Assembly: GCA_019358855.1 (NCBI GenBank)
Contig: JAHHII010000003.1
Span: forward strand, 1 to 64,000
Origin: Timaviella obliquedivisa GSE-PSE-MK23-08B
Lineage (GTDB): Bacteria; Cyanobacteriota; Cyanobacteriia; Elainellales; Elainellaceae
Reading direction: 5' to 3'
Length of the DNA: 64,000 bases
The translations under genes and the position numbers were made by a program. Under the pieces are notes generated by a model. The model was not told the origin of the DNA. It did not search any database and saw only the letters and a list, made by a program, of their open reading frames with translations. Of the stretch, positions 47,884 through 61,209 are shown piece by piece (within the stretch, counting starts at the first letter, position 1; the number at the start of each line of letters is the position of its first letter).

Positions 47884-48912
47884 ATGCAGACTTACGATAA
47901 AGCTGATGTCAAATACGATTGGTGGGCAGGCAACGCCCGATTTGCCAACACTTCTGGGCTATTTATCTCTGCCCATGTTGCGCAAGCCGCATTGATTACT
48001 TTTTGGGCAGGAGCCTTTACGCTGTTTGAACTCTCCTCCTACAACTCTAGTATCCCCATGGGTGAACAAGGGCTGATCTTACTGCCTCACTTAGCAACAT
48101 TGGGTTTAGGAATTGGGCAAGGCGGACAAGTGGTTGATACCTATCCCTATTTTGTCATTGGCGCTGTCCATCTCATTTCATCAGCAGTTTTAGGTGCAGG
48201 CGCTTTATTTCACACCTTCAAGGGTTCCGAAGATTTAAAGCAAGCTAAAGGTAATGCTAGAAGATTTCACTTTGAGTGGAGTGACTCCAAGCAGTTGGGT
48301 CTGATTCTAGGACATCATTTGCTTTTCTTAGGTGCAGGCGCTTTGTTGCTGGTGGCAAAAGCCATGTATTGGGGCGGGCTGTATGATGCGGCGACTCAAA
48401 CGGTGCGCGTCGTCACGACACCCACCCTCAACCCTGCAATCATTTATGGCTATCAAACCCATTTTGCCAGTGTTGATAACCTGGAAGATTTGGTTGGAGG
48501 ACATGTGTATGTTGGTGTTTTGTTAATTGCGGGCGGCATTTGGCATATTTTGGTGCCGCCGCTGAGTTGGGCGAAAAAAGTGTTGATTTTTTCGGGTGAG
48601 GCAATTCTTTCTTATTCTTTGGGCGGTGTTGCACTGGCAGGATTTGTTGCAGCTTACTTCTGCGCCGTCAACACTTTGGCATATCCGGTAGAGTTTTATG
48701 GGCCTGTACTAGAGGTAAAGTTAGGAGTGACTCCTTATTTTGCTGATACCGTCGTTCTGCCGTTTGGTGCACATACGTCTCGGTGTTGGTTAGCCAATGC
48801 TCATTTCTTTTTAGCGTTCTTCTTTTTACAAGGACATCTCTGGCACGCGCTGAGAGCGATCGGGTTTGATTTCAGACGAGTCGAGCGCGCGCTAAATGCC
48901 GTGGAAAGTTAG
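47884..48912 (+). CDS. isiA: Iron-stress chlorophyll-binding protein IsiA (CP43')
   Basis: The 342-aa six-span antenna protein binds chlorophyll a and forms rings around photosystem I under iron starvation. The N-terminus [27 protein letters not shown] is diagnostic. Chlorophyll-binding His residues appear in each span (for example [62 protein letters not shown]). It lacks the large lumenal loop of CP43, as expected. GGAGA precedes the ATG. A Fur-family gene follows, which fits iron control. Confidence 0.96.
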
Positions 48913-51640: not shown

Positions 51641-51862
51641 ATGTTTGAAATCCAAAGTTCAGAACGCTGGCAGGTCTACCGTCGATTACAAGAACTCGAT
51701 ATTCATTGCTTTTGCTCATCTTACAAGCCCCTGAAGGTTGAGATTAATGGGGCGATCGCAGCTTCTCAAATTTGGAGTGTGACTCGGCAATTCACTGCAT
51801 CTCGTCAAGAGTTAATCGACTGGATGGAAGACTGTTGGAAGTGTAAAGGGCGAAAGCGTTAA
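51641..51862 (+). CDS. Asr1405/Asl0597-like small conserved protein
   Basis: The 73-aa cyanobacterial protein has the pattern VYRRLQELDIHCFCSSYKPLKVEINGAIAASQIWSVTRQFTASRQELIDWME. It is small and soluble, with a Cys-x-Cys and two Cys in a C-terminal CWKCKGRKR tail. I recall this as the Asr1405/Asl0597 family, whose function is unknown. It is the last ordinary gene before the CRISPR island. Confidence 0.7.
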   Translation: MFEIQSSERWQVYRRLQELDIHCFCSSYKPLKVEINGAIAASQIWSVTRQFTASRQELIDWMEDCWKCKGRKR

Positions 51863-51902
51863 AGCCTCCTTACGTTGGAAGAACCTACAAAAAAGAAGGC
51901 AG

Positions 51903-51939
51903 GTTTCTAACTAATCCGATCGCAATCGATCGCGGCAAC
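51903..51939 (-). repeat. Solitary CRISPR repeat
   Basis: A 37-nt sequence matches the array repeat at 52881-53858 at 33 of 37 positions (for example GTTTCTAAC instead of GTTTCCAAC and CGGCAAC at the end). It has no repeat partner within 900 nt and is followed by a copy of the array leader at 51943-52114. Confidence 0.8.
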
Positions 51940-51942
51940 GGA

Positions 51943-52114
51943 GGCTTCCTAGAAACCGCTTGTCATCCGTATTCTAGCCCCAATTTGCGCGAACCTCATT
52001 TTCATGGGTCAACAAGCCCTCCTCATTATCAACAAAAAACGACTAAATCCTTGAAACCCTGATTCCACAAGCTACGCGGATGATTACGAAAGGATAAAGG
52101 TTGGGGCGATCGCT
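51943..52114 (-). repeat. Second copy of the CRISPR leader
   Basis: The 172-bp segment aligns without gaps to 53863-54034, with about 11 mismatches, exactly 1,920 bp apart. Both copies sit at the same side of a CRISPR repeat, starting with GGCTTCCTAGAAACCGC and ending at GGGCGATCGCT. It is therefore a duplicated leader (leader-like in the minus direction). It is not coding. Confidence 0.8.
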
Positions 52115-52120
52115 ATTATT

Positions 52121-52546
52121 TCACTTGGGTAGAGTAACTTGCTCAAAAGGCTGACTTCGATAACGACGGTAGATATTAAAATCATTATCCAGTGTGACAA
52201 TTGCAGAGATATCAAGACGTTCGGAGATAGCGACTAAGGACAGATCTGCAAAATCAGCAGGAAGGTCAGCATACTGTGCATTTAGTTCAGCGATGCGAGT
52301 GTAATCGCTCAATACCAGAGATTCAACAGTGTACAAATCTTTAGCAAGATCAGATAAAAACTCGTTTTGAGTGCGCCAGTCAGCGTTGAGTAGCCACATT
52401 ACCTCAGTGACACAGCCTGAAGTTGTGACTAGTTGGCTGGTGCATTGCTCAAAAAATGTATACGCCTGCTAGTGATATCTGTCCCTGGCACTGTAGTAGG
52501 CAATCAGGATGCCGCTGTCAATCAGGATGACGGCAGGATAATTCAT
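52121..52546 (-). pseudogene. VapC-like PIN-domain toxin, inactivated by an in-frame amber stop
   Basis: Read from the ATG at 52546, the minus strand gives VILIDSGILIAYYSARDRYH and then TAG (52469-52471, codon 26). The same frame continues with AYTFFEQCTSQLVTTSGCVTEVMWLL and DLPADFADLSLVAISERL...IVTLDNDFNIYRRY to a normal end, 141 aa in all. The PIN acidic residues (D in LIDSG, E in VTEV, D in ADFADL, D in TLDNDF) are all still there, so the nonsense codon is the only visible lesion. A restart at the ATG at 52399 would lack the first catalytic Asp. The start overlaps the antitoxin stop (ATGA). Confidence 0.8.
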
Positions 52547-52812
52547 TGAGAGAACTGTTGCGGACGGCGCACTGATAAATATTCAGCGATCGCACCTTTA
52601 CGATTTTTGCGCTCAGATAAATTAACAGGGGCACCTTCAAGGAGTTTTTCAGGATGTCCTCCTCGTCGCTCAACAAGTGTCTTACCCGATTGCAGGTTCA
52701 TTAAACGCTGATGCAGTAAGTTTTTAATCAGTGCTTCAGGCGTAGTATTCTCCTGTTTCAAGATCTCACTGAGATATCCCACTGTTTCTGGGTCTAGCTC
52801 TATCGTAAACAT
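52543..52812 (-). CDS. Antitoxin of the PIN toxin pair (CopG/VapB-like)
   Basis: The 89-aa protein has an N-terminal MFTIELDPETVGYLSEILKQENTTPEALIKNLLHQRL, a beta-strand plus helix-turn-helix pattern like ribbon-helix-helix antitoxins. The charged, flexible C-terminus (NRKGAIAEYLSVRRPQQFSQ) would wrap the toxin. It overlaps the vapC start by four bases, as in typical TA operons. Since the toxin gene is broken, the antitoxin may now have only regulatory or no function. Confidence 0.75.
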   Translation of the reverse strand: MFTIELDPETVGYLSEILKQENTTPEALIKNLLHQRLMNLQSGKTLVERRGGHPEKLLEGAPVNLSERKNRKGAIAEYLSVRRPQQFSQ

Positions 52813-52880
52813 GATATTTCCTCACCCTGACTGAAGTTTTATCTAGTGCTGTAGTCCTGGTTAGTTAGTCTATGGATGCC

Positions 52881-53858
52881 GTTTTTAACTAATCCGATCA
52901 TAACCGATCGGGGCAACCACAACTTCAGCCCAGGCGATCGGCTCATTTCACTCATTTCCGGTTACACCGATCGCAAACGATCGGTGCAACTCGATTGCAA
53001 TACTTGGAGAGGGCAGGACTAATCGTGCCGAGTTTCCAACTAATCCGATCGCAAACGATCGGTACAACTGGAGGCGGTTGAGCGAAGTATTGACGATGAT
53101 ACTTTTCCAACTAATCCGATCGCAAACGATCGGTGCAACGAGTTGGCGATAGTTGCCGATCGCCTCTTGGCATGAATTTCCAACTAATCCGATCGCAAAC
53201 GATCGGTGCAACCAGGCTGTTGTTTTCGGTAACGATCTGGCTTCCACGGTTTCCAACTAATCCGATCGCAAACGATCGGTGCAACTGCTCATCAGCGCCT
53301 CAAACGCTGTTAGCAGTTGCAGTTTCCAACTAATCCGATCGCAAACGATCGGTGCAACAGATGATTAAAGGAATGATTTAGAACTATGGGACAAGTTTCC
53401 AACTAATCCGATCGCAAACGATCGGTGCAACCTGCTGAGCATCTTGCTTAAGCCCCTGGTCTAAGTTTCCAACTAATCCGATCGCAAACGATCGGTGCAA
53501 CCAGTAGTCAAAAGATTTGTTGAGGCTTATCGTCAAGGTTTCCAACTAATCCGATCGCAAACGATCGGTGCAACCCGTGCTTTGCGTTCAGAGTTTAGGG
53601 CAGTTTTTGTTTCCAACTAATCCGATCGCAAACGATCGGTGCAACGTGTTGACAAAAAATGTAGTCGGAGCGATACTAAGTTTCCAACTAATCCGATCGC
53701 AAACGATCGGTGCAACTTCGGAGTTTGGAGATCCCTCAAGCTCTTTCCAGTTTCCAACTAATCCGATCGCAAACGATCGGTGCAACGATTACAATTAATA
53801 AATCGAGAGTTAACTTATCAAGTTTCCAACTAATCCGATCGCAAACGATCGGTGCAAA
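52881..53858 (-). CRISPR. Main CRISPR array, 14 repeats of 37 nt
   Basis: Repeats start at 52881, 52954, 53032, 53103, 53176, 53249, 53322, 53395, 53465, 53538, 53609, 53680, 53750 and 53822. On the plus strand the repeat begins GTTTCCAACTAATC, then has CGATCG-CAAA-CGATCG and ends GGTGCAAC. The 13 spacers are mostly 33-36 nt (one is 41). The first two repeats (52881, 52954) are strongly degenerate, the next three have one change, and the last has one end change. Decay at the low-coordinate end, a GGAAAC 3' end on the minus strand and a leader at 53859-54034 all indicate leftward transcription, the same direction as the cas operon. The crRNA 5' tag would be TTGGAAAC. Confidence 0.95.
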
Positions 53859-54165
53859 CTGCGGCTTCCTAGAAACCGCTCGTCATCCATATTCTAGCCC
53901 CAATTTGCGCGAACCTCATTTTCATGGGTCAATAAGCCCTCCTCATTATCAATAAAAAACGCCTAAATCCCTGAAACCCTGATTCCACAAGATACGCGGA
54001 TGATTACAAAAGGATAGGGGTTTGGGCGATCGCTAGAGATCCGCGCAAACTCCCGAATCTCTCCCTTAGGGCAGAAGCACCCACGGAGCTAATCGCCTGC
54101 ATTTAAGGGCTGAATAGGCGATTTTCTTTTAGTAGACATTTCGTGACTCTCCTCCTTTTCAATCA
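53859..54165 (-). promoter_or_regulatory. Leader of the main CRISPR array
   Basis: The 172 bp at 53863-54034 adjoining the youngest repeat is the leader; its duplicate is at 51943-52114. The rest, up to the cas stop at 54166, includes the inverted repeat at 54091-54123. The array promoter should lie here, but I cannot point to defined boxes. Confidence 0.7.
54091..54130 (+). terminator. Hairpin with T-rich tail, plus orientation
   Basis: AATCGCCT and AGGCGATT pair around a 17-nt loop and are followed by TTCTTTT on the plus strand. It sits between the cas operon and the leader but faces against both, so it could end an antisense transcript from the array. A regulatory hairpin is the alternative. 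Confidence 0.4.
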
Positions 54166-55827
54166 TTATCGTTTCCTTTTTGGATCTGCAACCTTAACAA
54201 CTCTCGGCACGTTTTTAGGCGCGTTTCCCCAAGCTAGATTAAAGTCCTTACCTTCCAACTCTTGAACAAATTTCAGAAGTTGACAGCCCTCTTGCTGATG
54301 ACTCCAGGGCGTGCGATCGCCATGAAACACCGTCACAATTTCTAAAAACTGATTCTCCACAGGCAACATCCGATGCCACACCGAACTCACAAATCGAGGT
54401 CGAGTATCACCAGGATTTTTACCCCCAATCGCAGGCGTTGTCTTAAATGATTCATCATGAAATAACCGAATCACCTCAGACTGCTGCGTCAACTTGGCAT
54501 AAACTGCAACACGCTCAGGATGCCACGACTCTCGCCACTTAAGCGACTGAGGAACACGAACATTAAGGCGATCGCAACAGCTTTTGTGCAACTGATTTAA
54601 GAACGTCTTCAACTGCTCCACTGTCAAGATGTCATCCATCTCTTTAGAAGTCCAATGACAACCAATCGCAAACTTTCGCGAATGATAGTCTGGCAAAAAC
54701 TCTCCATGCCAAACCCGTCGCCACGACTTCCCAAACCCGCCCATCACGAAAGCAAACTTAAGAACTTGTTTTATGAAAAGGCGATCGTCCTCTGGTGCAT
54801 CCAAATATAAAATACCCTCCGTTTTATAAGTCGGGTTTTGCCCATGCGTATCAAACTCTTCCGACCTCGACTGCCAAATCAACCGCACTGCACTTTCAGC
54901 TTTTTGATCCCCAAACAAAGCATTCACACCGCTAGTAACCCGATGTTCTTCAGCACAAACCCCCGCCAGCAATCGGCTCACATGCCCTCTCAAACTCGCC
55001 TTAAACAAATTAGGACGAAACTCTGGCACATTATTACGCAACTGAGAACTGACCCCAACACCCGACAGCAAAAGACTAACCGGAAAAGCAGGCGTAATCG
55101 TCGGCTGCCCTGCAAGATTACCACCCATCCCATAGCCATTGCTCGTTTTGCCGCCCACGCCTCGCTGCAATGCCGCAGTCAAAATCCGACGCACCTCATT
55201 CCAGTCCACATCCGGCTTAGCACAGCTAAACTCAAACATCATCAACGGACGATAAAAGCTGATAATCGCATTTGCCGAAGTTTGCCTCTCCGATGAACCT
55301 AGCTGCCTAGCTTGCTGAGGATGCACGACATCCACAATTCGCTTCGCCCAGTTTCCTACTGGATAAGCCCCTAAAAACCGTAATTCTCCCGGCTGGTCAG
55401 CATTACCGCAATATTTCAGCTTTTGCCGATCATTGCAAGCCCGCTTAAACAAACCTTTCACGCTGCTTCCCGGCAATAACGGAATACCATTCTTCCCAAT
55501 TACAGGACGAGCAATACTATCCTGTCCACAGTTGCTAAACAACCGAAACGGAAACTCAACCTGCACCCGATAGACAGCTTTATCTAACCCGATCGGACGA
55601 GTTTTATGTTGGTAACAGGCTTCGCCCTGCTTATTTTTATAAGTCCACTCCTCAGTCCAATCGTCTAAATCCTGATTATTTCCAGCAAATTGCAGACTAC
55701 AGCGCCCCGAAACCTGAGCGCGATACATCATCGGAATCCTCTTCAGGATATTATCCACAGACTGAACAGACGGCGGTGGTTCTTGAATTACCCCAGCTTT
55801 TTTGAACGCGGCGGCAAAAGCATTCAT
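54166..55827 (-). CDS. Double-RAMP Cmr subunit (Cmr6-Cmr1-like fusion)
   Basis: The 553-aa protein belongs to the RAMP superfamily. Its N-terminal half (about 75-250) has PLLPGSSVKGLFKRAC and ALQRGVGGKTSNGYGMGG, the opening and closing glycine loops of Cmr6. Its C-terminal half (about 265-480) has FKASLRGHVSRLLAGVC, NALFGDQKAESAVRL and GGFGKSWRRVWHGEF, which follow the Cmr1 pattern. Separate Cmr1 and Cmr6 genes are absent, so I infer one chain does both jobs at the backbone end near the crRNA 3' side. It is last in the operon; its start overlaps cmr5 by four bases. Confidence 0.75.
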   Translation of the reverse strand: MNAFAAAFKKAGVIQEPPPSVQSVDNILKRIPMMYRAQVSGRCSLQFAGNNQDLDDWTEEWTYKNKQGEACYQHKTRPIGLDKAVYRVQVEFPFRLFSNCGQDSIARPVIGKNGIPLLPGSSVKGLFKRACNDRQKLKYCGNADQPGELRFLGAYPVGNWAKRIVDVVHPQQARQLGSSERQTSANAIISFYRPLMMFEFSCAKPDVDWNEVRRILTAALQRGVGGKTSNGYGMGGNLAGQPTITPAFPVSLLLSGVGVSSQLRNNVPEFRPNLFKASLRGHVSRLLAGVCAEEHRVTSGVNALFGDQKAESAVRLIWQSRSEEFDTHGQNPTYKTEGILYLDAPEDDRLFIKQVLKFAFVMGGFGKSWRRVWHGEFLPDYHSRKFAIGCHWTSKEMDDILTVEQLKTFLNQLHKSCCDRLNVRVPQSLKWRESWHPERVAVYAKLTQQSEVIRLFHDESFKTTPAIGGKNPGDTRPRFVSSVWHRMLPVENQFLEIVTVFHGDRTPWSHQQEGCQLLKFVQELEGKDFNLAWGNAPKNVPRVVKVADPKRKR

Positions 55828-56270
55828 TCTCCCTCTCCATTCTTTTTCTTATAGCGTTGCGTCCACCACACCAACGCATCACAAAGCTGAGTCAGCACCA
55901 TCAATGCAGCCCGCTGATCTTCCATCGGCATTTTCCAAATTTTTTCTGCCATTGCTTCAATCTTGGCAGTTTCATTATGCTTAACCGGATCATTAGGTAA
56001 ACTAAATCCAGCTTCATGCAAAACATCATGCAGCGCTTGCCAAACCGCCTTCCAATATTCACCCTTTTGCCGATCCTTACTGTCTCGCATTAAGCGCAAA
56101 TGCTCTCCCCAAAATCGTTCTAATCCGTAGGCAACAGACATTCTCATTTTGTGAGACTCGTTGAGAACATTTTCTAAATCACGGCGTTCAATCACCAGTT
56201 TTTGGGCATTGTGATCCAGCTTATAAGGCTTCCATCCAGTTGATTGCTGATTCGGTGTTACTTGAGTCAT
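55824..56270 (-). CDS. cmr5: CRISPR type III-B small subunit Cmr5 (Cas11)
   Basis: The 148-aa all-helical protein has size and position of Cmr5, which lines the target RNA filament between Cas10 and Cmr4. No catalytic motif is expected. There are helical segments rich in Arg, Glu and Trp (NAQKLVIERRDLENVLNESH, WKAVWQALHDVLHEAGF, MVLTQLCDALVWWTQRYKKK). The family assignment rests chiefly on operon position and helical build. It overlaps both neighbours by four bases. Confidence 0.75.
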   Translation of the reverse strand: MTQVTPNQQSTGWKPYKLDHNAQKLVIERRDLENVLNESHKMRMSVAYGLERFWGEHLRLMRDSKDRQKGEYWKAVWQALHDVLHEAGFSLPNDPVKHNETAKIEAMAEKIWKMPMEDQRAALMVLTQLCDALVWWTQRYKKKNGEGE

Positions 56271-57121
56271 CTTTCTTGTTCTCCTGATGCTGTTTTAGCG
56301 ACTTCTGGTAACGCGTTCAATGTGACTTGGGTTCGCCCAAAACCCACCGATTCTAACCCACCGAAATAGAGTTCCTTGCTCTCTTGCAACTGCGCCGCTT
56401 CGATAAACTGCTGCCATTCAACAGGCTGCTTGTTATACTCCTTGCGAAGTGCGATCGGGAAAATCATCACCGAGCCTTCTGGCAATGCCTCCATATTAAA
56501 AAACGCCTTGCCCTTAGCAATCTTTTGATCCTCATCCAAAGAAACACGGCTCTGGCGATAAAGTGCCATATCGTGAATCATGGCGATTTCGGTATCATCG
56601 ACTACCATCAGCAAATGCTCATTTGCATCATTGATCTCTGTCGGCATGTAATCTTTTAAGCCCTTATCTTCGTCGCCCAGGTGAAAAAAGCCAAGATTGA
56701 AAAATAGAGTGCGGCTAGATTTTTTGCCGAAGTAACTCCGAGGTTTAAATATATGCTTAGGTTTATCTAACATTCGTTGATAGCGCTTCAGCCAGGTGGG
56801 GCAAGAGACTCGCACCACAGGCTGGTTAGGGCAGTACACCGGAATCCAGAGCAGAGACGCATATTCAAACTTGACGATACCCTCGCTAGTACTGTTCGGT
56901 TCGCCCGAAACGGCATCTTTGCCATACCAGTAGCCAAAGTCTGCGTGCGCTTGCCGCATATCTGCCCGAAACCGTCCGCGAATTGAGCTACCCGGAATGA
57001 TTCCTGTTTGCGTAAACTGATCCCTAAAAATCAGGTTGAGATTACCTGTTTCCTCGCCTGCACTTGCCCCCACATGGAGCGGAGCAAGCGTTTCGATGAT
57101 GCCATAAGCTTTTTTGTACAT
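56267..57121 (-). CDS. cmr4: CRISPR type III-B backbone RAMP Cmr4 (Cas7)
   Basis: The 284-aa RAMP protein starts YGIIETLAPLHVGASAGEETGNLNLIFRD, the classic Cmr4 N-terminus. IIPGSSIRGRFRADMR is the glycine loop with the RNA-binding Arg, and the C-terminal LYFGGLESVGFGRTQVTL is the G-loop end. Cmr4 forms the crRNA-bound backbone and cuts target RNA at 6-nt intervals with a conserved Asp; a likely candidate is in the IFRDQF segment (not certain). The gene begins within the 3' part of a truncated PIN frame. Confidence 0.88.
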   Translation of the reverse strand: MYKKAYGIIETLAPLHVGASAGEETGNLNLIFRDQFTQTGIIPGSSIRGRFRADMRQAHADFGYWYGKDAVSGEPNSTSEGIVKFEYASLLWIPVYCPNQPVVRVSCPTWLKRYQRMLDKPKHIFKPRSYFGKKSSRTLFFNLGFFHLGDEDKGLKDYMPTEINDANEHLLMVVDDTEIAMIHDMALYRQSRVSLDEDQKIAKGKAFFNMEALPEGSVMIFPIALRKEYNKQPVEWQQFIEAAQLQESKELYFGGLESVGFGRTQVTLNALPEVAKTASGEQER

Positions 57122-57347
57122 GGTGGCTTGGATTCTGGAGGGCTTTGAATTCTAGGTTGTAGGCGGTTTGGGAAAGAAGTTTTTTGCGAACCAGGACATG
57201 AAAGAGTTCGCCTAACGTTTGAGTGCTGATCTGGATTCTGGGGCGATCGCTTCTGATAATCTCTTCAACGCGTTGAGTCTTGATGGCTGGGTTTTGACTA
57301 TACAAGTAAACCCAGAGATTAGTGTCTAGAAAAATGCTATCGGTCAT
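57042..57347 (-). pseudogene. PIN-domain toxin, C-terminally truncated at the cmr4 junction
   Basis: The frame begins with SIFLDTNLWVYLYSQNPAIKTQRV and includes the second acidic site in QTLGELFHVLVRK, both normal for PIN/VapC proteins. After about 73 residues it runs into the start of cmr4 and ends in unrelated sequence. The C-terminal half with the last PIN acidic residues is missing, so nuclease activity is unlikely. It overlaps the upstream antitoxin's 3' end and lies inside the cas operon, between cmr3 and cmr4. Confidence 0.75.
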
Positions 57348-57591
57348 AAATTTCGTTGCGATCGAATTTGTAGTCTGGGGGGAGTTGAAAGGAGTATTGT
57401 TTGGTATGTTCTAAAAACTTTTGGGTGCGGACGTTTTCTAAGTCATCAGTTTCGGCTTGATGCTGTGCTAAGTCTTCTGTTTCTATATCAAAAATCATGA
57501 GTGTGACTCGTTTTCCCTCTAGTGCAGAATCGGGAGTTTCGTCAGGGATAAACTTGCCATTGATGCAGGTCGCTTGTAGAACTTTAGACAT
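57337..57591 (-). CDS. Antitoxin partner of the truncated PIN gene
   Basis: The 84-aa protein starts KVLQATCINGKFIPDETPDSALEGKRVTLMIFD, a two-stranded AbrB/AF2212-like antitoxin core. An acidic helix and a C-terminal HTKQYSFQLPPDYKFDRNEIYDR tail follow, as seen in VapB-like antitoxins next to PIN genes. It overlaps the truncated toxin start and begins 41 nt after the cmr3 stop. It appears intact, so it may be made along with the Cmr proteins. Confidence 0.75.
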   Translation of the reverse strand: MSKVLQATCINGKFIPDETPDSALEGKRVTLMIFDIETEDLAQHQAETDDLENVRTQKFLEHTKQYSFQLPPDYKFDRNEIYDR

Positions 57592-57631
57592 TGCTTTTTC
57601 CCGGTGTAATTTAGTTTTTACTCAGTATAAG

Positions 57632-60946
<3,315 letters not shown>

Positions 60947-61209
60947 CATGACCGATAGTACTTATCGGATTAGTTGAAAACAACTTATTTATGACAACCG
61001 TTTGATGCGTTTCTGTATCACAAAGCATCTGTCCTTTGGGCAGGTGCGATCGGATTAGTTGGAAACTGAATGATGTCATGCCACGGCTTCTGTTCATCAG
61101 TTGTTCCCGATCGGTTGCGATCGGATTAGTTGGAAACGCACCTGTTAGGATGAGCGCACCAATCCATTTCTCCAGTTCCCGATCGGTTGCGATCGGATTA
61201 GTTGGAAAC
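60947..61209 (+). CRISPR. Second, decayed mini-array with a variant repeat
   Basis: Two intact 35-nt repeats lie at 61103-61137 and 61175-61209. A half-degenerate repeat is at 61031-61066 and a weaker one at 60947-60981. Spacers are 36 and 37 nt between the last three; 49 nt separate the first two. The repeat's last 23 nt (TTGCGATCGG...TTGGAAAC) equal the minus-strand repeat of the main array, while the first 12 differ (GTTCCCGATCGG). It is oriented rightward, away from the cas operon. Decay is at the 5' end of this orientation, opposite to the usual pattern. Confidence 0.8.

Follow-up and report, generated by a model that had tools for sequence, protein, structure and literature searches.

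The window, a stretch of 64,000 nt from Timaviella obliquedivisa, carries a type III-B (Cmr) CRISPR locus in which the leader is present twice. On the minus strand, the cmr genes are followed by the main-array leader (L2), 14 repeats, a VapBC-like pair composed of a small ORF and a PIN toxin gene, an extra leader copy (L1), a solitary repeat (R1), 44 nt, and the edge of the island. The effector genes (54166-60308, minus strand) encode RAMP proteins (54166-55827 and 56267-57121), Cmr3 (57632-58624) and Cas10/Cmr2 (58617-60308), and another PIN-type gene with a small ORF lies among them (57042-57591). L2 occupies 53859-54035 and the main array 52881-53858, both on the minus strand. Since worn repeats, the oldest of the array, lie at the left (52881 and 52954) and the leader at the right, next to the newest repeat (53822), transcription should run leftwards. 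All 13 spacers of the main array are at the L2 copy, and comparison of the array with a phage collection gave no match. The consensus repeat is GTTGCACCGATCGTTTGCGATCGGATTAGTTGGAAAC on the minus strand; its 3′ end resembles the usual crRNA handles.

The extra copy L1 (51940-52115, minus strand) extends in full to a HIP1 octamer (GCGATCGC) on its outer side and retains a TAGAAT box that resembles a −10 element. It adjoins the solitary repeat R1, GTTGCCGCGATCGATTGCGATCGGATTAGTTAGAAAC (51903-51939, minus strand), which differs from the array consensus at four positions. The following 44 nt (51859-51902) separate R1 from the island edge, the last position in DNA synteny with the congener G001 being 51858; the comparison with this genome yields the left edge only. 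The preliminary description had placed the whole array and a toxin-antitoxin pair between both leaders. This is confirmed, with two additions: the minus strand is the reading strand of the array, and the vapC-like PIN toxin gene (52121-52546, minus strand) is interrupted at codon 26 by an in-frame TAG. The small ORF (89 aa, 52543-52812, minus strand) is open, overlaps the start of the PIN gene and is presumed to encode the antitoxin by its position only.

Two other features of the window are recorded here. A second, worn array of four repeats lies on the plus strand on the far side of the cmr genes (60945-61209), accompanied by what may be the remnant of a leader, CCGCTAGAATAGTAAC. Genomes G142 and G224 also have a comparable additional cluster of repeats, on the opposite strand and about 6 kb from the main array. 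An IsrR antisense RNA (Rfam RF01419) is located opposite an isiA-like gene at 48277-48454.

The duplicated leader and its place in related genomes

The segment 51903-52115, composed of a 37-nt CRISPR repeat and the leader, matches 53822-54035. The leader part (51937-52115 against 53857-54035) aligns over 179 positions without gaps, with 13 mismatches and an offset of exactly 1920. The initial claim of a 172-bp leader repeated gap-free with about 11 mismatches at a spacing of 1,920 bp is thus borne out for the leader, the final 172-173 positions of the alignment containing 11 mismatches. Position 51903 is the first base of the solitary repeat and 53822 that of its partner, whose repeat-leader junction has one extra base.

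Whole-genome blastn found two copies of the leader in the 4.9-Mb genome (E values of 1.3e-107 and 1.3e-82) and no third. The remaining matches to the leader query are CRISPR repeats or short stretches, many of them at the octamer GCGATCGC. With two copies only, both chance similarity and a dispersed repeat element, the finding that was named beforehand as fatal to the leader reading, are excluded. A plasmid origin was dropped after a plasmid collection gave no match.

Among the 388 genomes of the class that were searched, eight others gave matches, nearly all at repeats of this repeat family, and a homologous leader proper was found in G124 and G142 only. These two genomes belong to another family than the host. 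The homology to their leaders spans about 200 nt, in blastn pieces that are 77-78% identical, and it is L2 that can be placed by it. The gene at the leader end of the array in G142, G124 and G224 is a homolog of the cmr gene at 54166-55827 (about 39% identity, 426-489 aa). Because the same cmr gene lies beside homologous leaders, L2 occupies the ancestral position and L1 is the additional one. On this comparative evidence the sequence at 51940-52115 and 53859-54035 is a true CRISPR leader, and the proposal of a duplicated leader end is upheld both by the homologous leaders at the orthologous place and by the copy number. With the G142 leader as query, seven related genomes yielded no second full leader copy. 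In a set of 36 genomes of the family, no L1-type copy was present beyond a 25-nt match in one genome.

Toxin-antitoxin-type genes recur in arrays of this repeat family. Five such arrays are split or bordered by differing pairs of the PIN or BrnT type on the strand of the array (L087:5139-5990, L088:2757-3828, L089:3402-4316, L059:246-1051, and 52116-52880 of the window), and further, often worn, repeats lie past the pairs. The genes that split or end the arrays of relatives are of the PIN type in G142, PIN with another small ORF in G224, VapC in G124 and BrnT in G020. The toxins of these array-borne pairs show no significant mutual similarity by blastp. At two other loci of the family, in G177 and G089, inspection by eye revealed no such pair among the surrounding ORFs. 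The G089 array (L090:2478-4542) contains seven copies of a 338-bp unit between repeats, each ending like the 3′ half of the repeat. No description of toxin-antitoxin pairs inside arrays was found in the open-access literature that was searched.

The solitary repeat and its junction with the leader

R1 is identical to the array consensus at 33 of 37 positions. Two of its derived changes, A6C and G32A, are also present in the oldest repeat of the array, a coincidence with a chance of about 0.014 if changes are uniform. R1 is therefore more like a terminal repeat than like the newest one, which serves as template. The changes of the oldest repeat at positions 17, 18 and 33 are absent from R1, and the change at position 7 is R1's own. 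In the relatives, too, leader-distal repeats carry handle changes from G to A. Downstream of R1 there is no further match to the 19-nt repeat core within four mismatches, leaving one repeat and no spacer.

Differences between L1 and L2 were polarised with G124 and G142 as outgroups. In the leader body they split about evenly, and divergence there is no greater in L1 than in L2. Clustering is seen among the changes assigned to L1: six fall in the 62 nt made up of the last 25 nt of the leader and the repeat, versus two in the other 152 nt (p 0.008), counts that are small and come from distant outgroups and a single strain of the species. The clustering drops to p 0.07 when all ambiguous sites are charged to L1; if junction and body are compared directly between L1 and L2, the difference is not significant (p 0.15). 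Among the six clustered changes are some that weaken the hairpin or shorten the repeat stem.

The L1-R1 junction is unlike that of the working array in that its hairpin and repeat stem are weaker than those of L2 and an indel is present. The leader hairpin that precedes the first repeat has a calculated energy of −5.7 kcal/mol in L1, compared to −11.6 in L2, −10.3 in G124 and −6.5 in G142. As the hairpin of the G142 leader is also weak, its strength is not a strict requirement. In R1 the repeat stem is shortened (−7.8 versus −10.6 kcal/mol) and the crRNA handle is altered. The nearly equal drift of the body in both copies, together with the location of most polarised junction changes in the empty copy, suggests that the junction hairpin and the repeat are the constrained parts in this leader family.

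Origin of the extra leader

The L1-R1 arrangement is genuine, and its features suggest a likely history. It is probably the stump of a second Cmr array that arose by tandem duplication of a leader and its array and subsequently collapsed to a leader with one repeat. The duplicated block would have contained both leader and array and would have been joined at the HIP1 octamer GCGATCGC, with which both leader copies end on their outer side. The window contains 94 such octamers, and this motif could have provided the homology for duplication, a role that was assigned to it post hoc. The downstream copy would then have collapsed through repeat-repeat recombination or slippage, whereas the L2 copy would have stayed beside the cmr genes and kept all 13 spacers. 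This order of events presumes that spacers at L1 were lost rather than never gained; none remain there, and no intermediate with spacers at L1 was seen among the relatives searched.

The preliminary description left the choice between a relic of an older array and a second integration site. The worn repeat, which looks like a terminal one, and the decay of the junction, the part that is read in integration and processing, favor the relic over the live site. If the leader and repeat had been copied as an integration site, Cas1-Cas2 could still add spacers at R1. L1 has retained an entire leader, including the TAGAAT box, with a body that has not diverged more than that of L2, and in laboratory systems a single repeat beside a leader suffices for spacer uptake (PMC8047081). 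However, the damage sits at the junction, where the leader hairpin, repeat stem and handle are all affected, and L1 holds no spacer after 7% divergence. The Cmr locus also has no adaptation genes. The genome contains two cas1 genes, neither of them with the Cmr genes: one, which carries a fusion to Cas4-like sequence, neighbors an array whose repeat core is GAACCTTTGATGCCGTAAGGCG, and the second neighbors an array whose core is GCGCCCAGCTTTCGGGCTGGGTGAGGATTGGAAC; neither core matches the repeat GTTGCACCGATCGTTTGCGATCGGATTAGTTGGAAAC. These genes might act in trans, but a live integration site appears unlikely. We also consider it unlikely that L1-R1 is still functional in a wider sense, either as a spare integration end able to found a new array or as the source of a transcribed one-repeat guide RNA for Cmr. 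If the latter were true, the R1 guide would be antisense to the 3′ end of the mRNA of a convergent 73-aa gene (51641-51862), and Cmr could target that message.

Instead of being duplicated in place, L1-R1 could have been acquired from a related strain through recombination. At the corresponding place the congener lacks the DNA that adjoins R1, and the 7% difference between L1 and L2 means that the copies are not young. Yet the related genomes that were searched gave no closer match to either copy, and such a history alone would still leave a collapsed array, which makes a foreign allele an improbable alternative. A further option is a module like CreTA, a CRISPR-regulated toxin-antitoxin system (PMC9458426), in which a guide RNA from the solitary repeat would repress the neighboring toxin gene. 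Both have an ectopic repeat beside a toxin gene, here with a promoter-like leader. Unlike CreTA, L1-R1 has no second repeat after R1, the toxin is a protein of the PIN type whose interrupted gene has its own small partner ORF, and no guide match is found in the toxin-antitoxin region: the 36 nt after R1 match at most 22 of 36 positions elsewhere in the window, with no top place in that region. We consider regulation of this kind very improbable. The reading as a collapsed duplicate is preferred.

Several CRISPR arrays with homologous leaders can share one genome. The present locus is like such cases in having two near-identical leaders beside one effector set, but differs in that one leader has no spacers and is set 1.9 kb apart from its counterpart, beyond a toxin-antitoxin pair. 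A direct description of duplicated leaders or leader relics was not found in the literature searched. Collapse of an array to a lone leader-adjacent repeat by repeat recombination has been reviewed with evidence from Legionella, and with laboratory refilling of a lone repeat (PMC8047081). The collapse of the type I-F array of Legionella pneumophila (Deecker and Ensminger 2020, as reviewed in PMC8047081) left a leader with a single terminal-type repeat, the type that R1 resembles. Repeat recombination would explain both cases, and such ends can in principle be refilled. In contrast to the Legionella pneumophila case, L1-R1 is a second copy beside an intact type III-B array, with decay in both the residual repeat and the junction. 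Usually, array collapse is either deduced from polymorphic repeats or produced experimentally, whereas here the likely collapsed copy adjoins its surviving sister, which allows a base-by-base comparison. L1-R1 most likely exemplifies a type of event that is already known, preserved here with unusual clarity.
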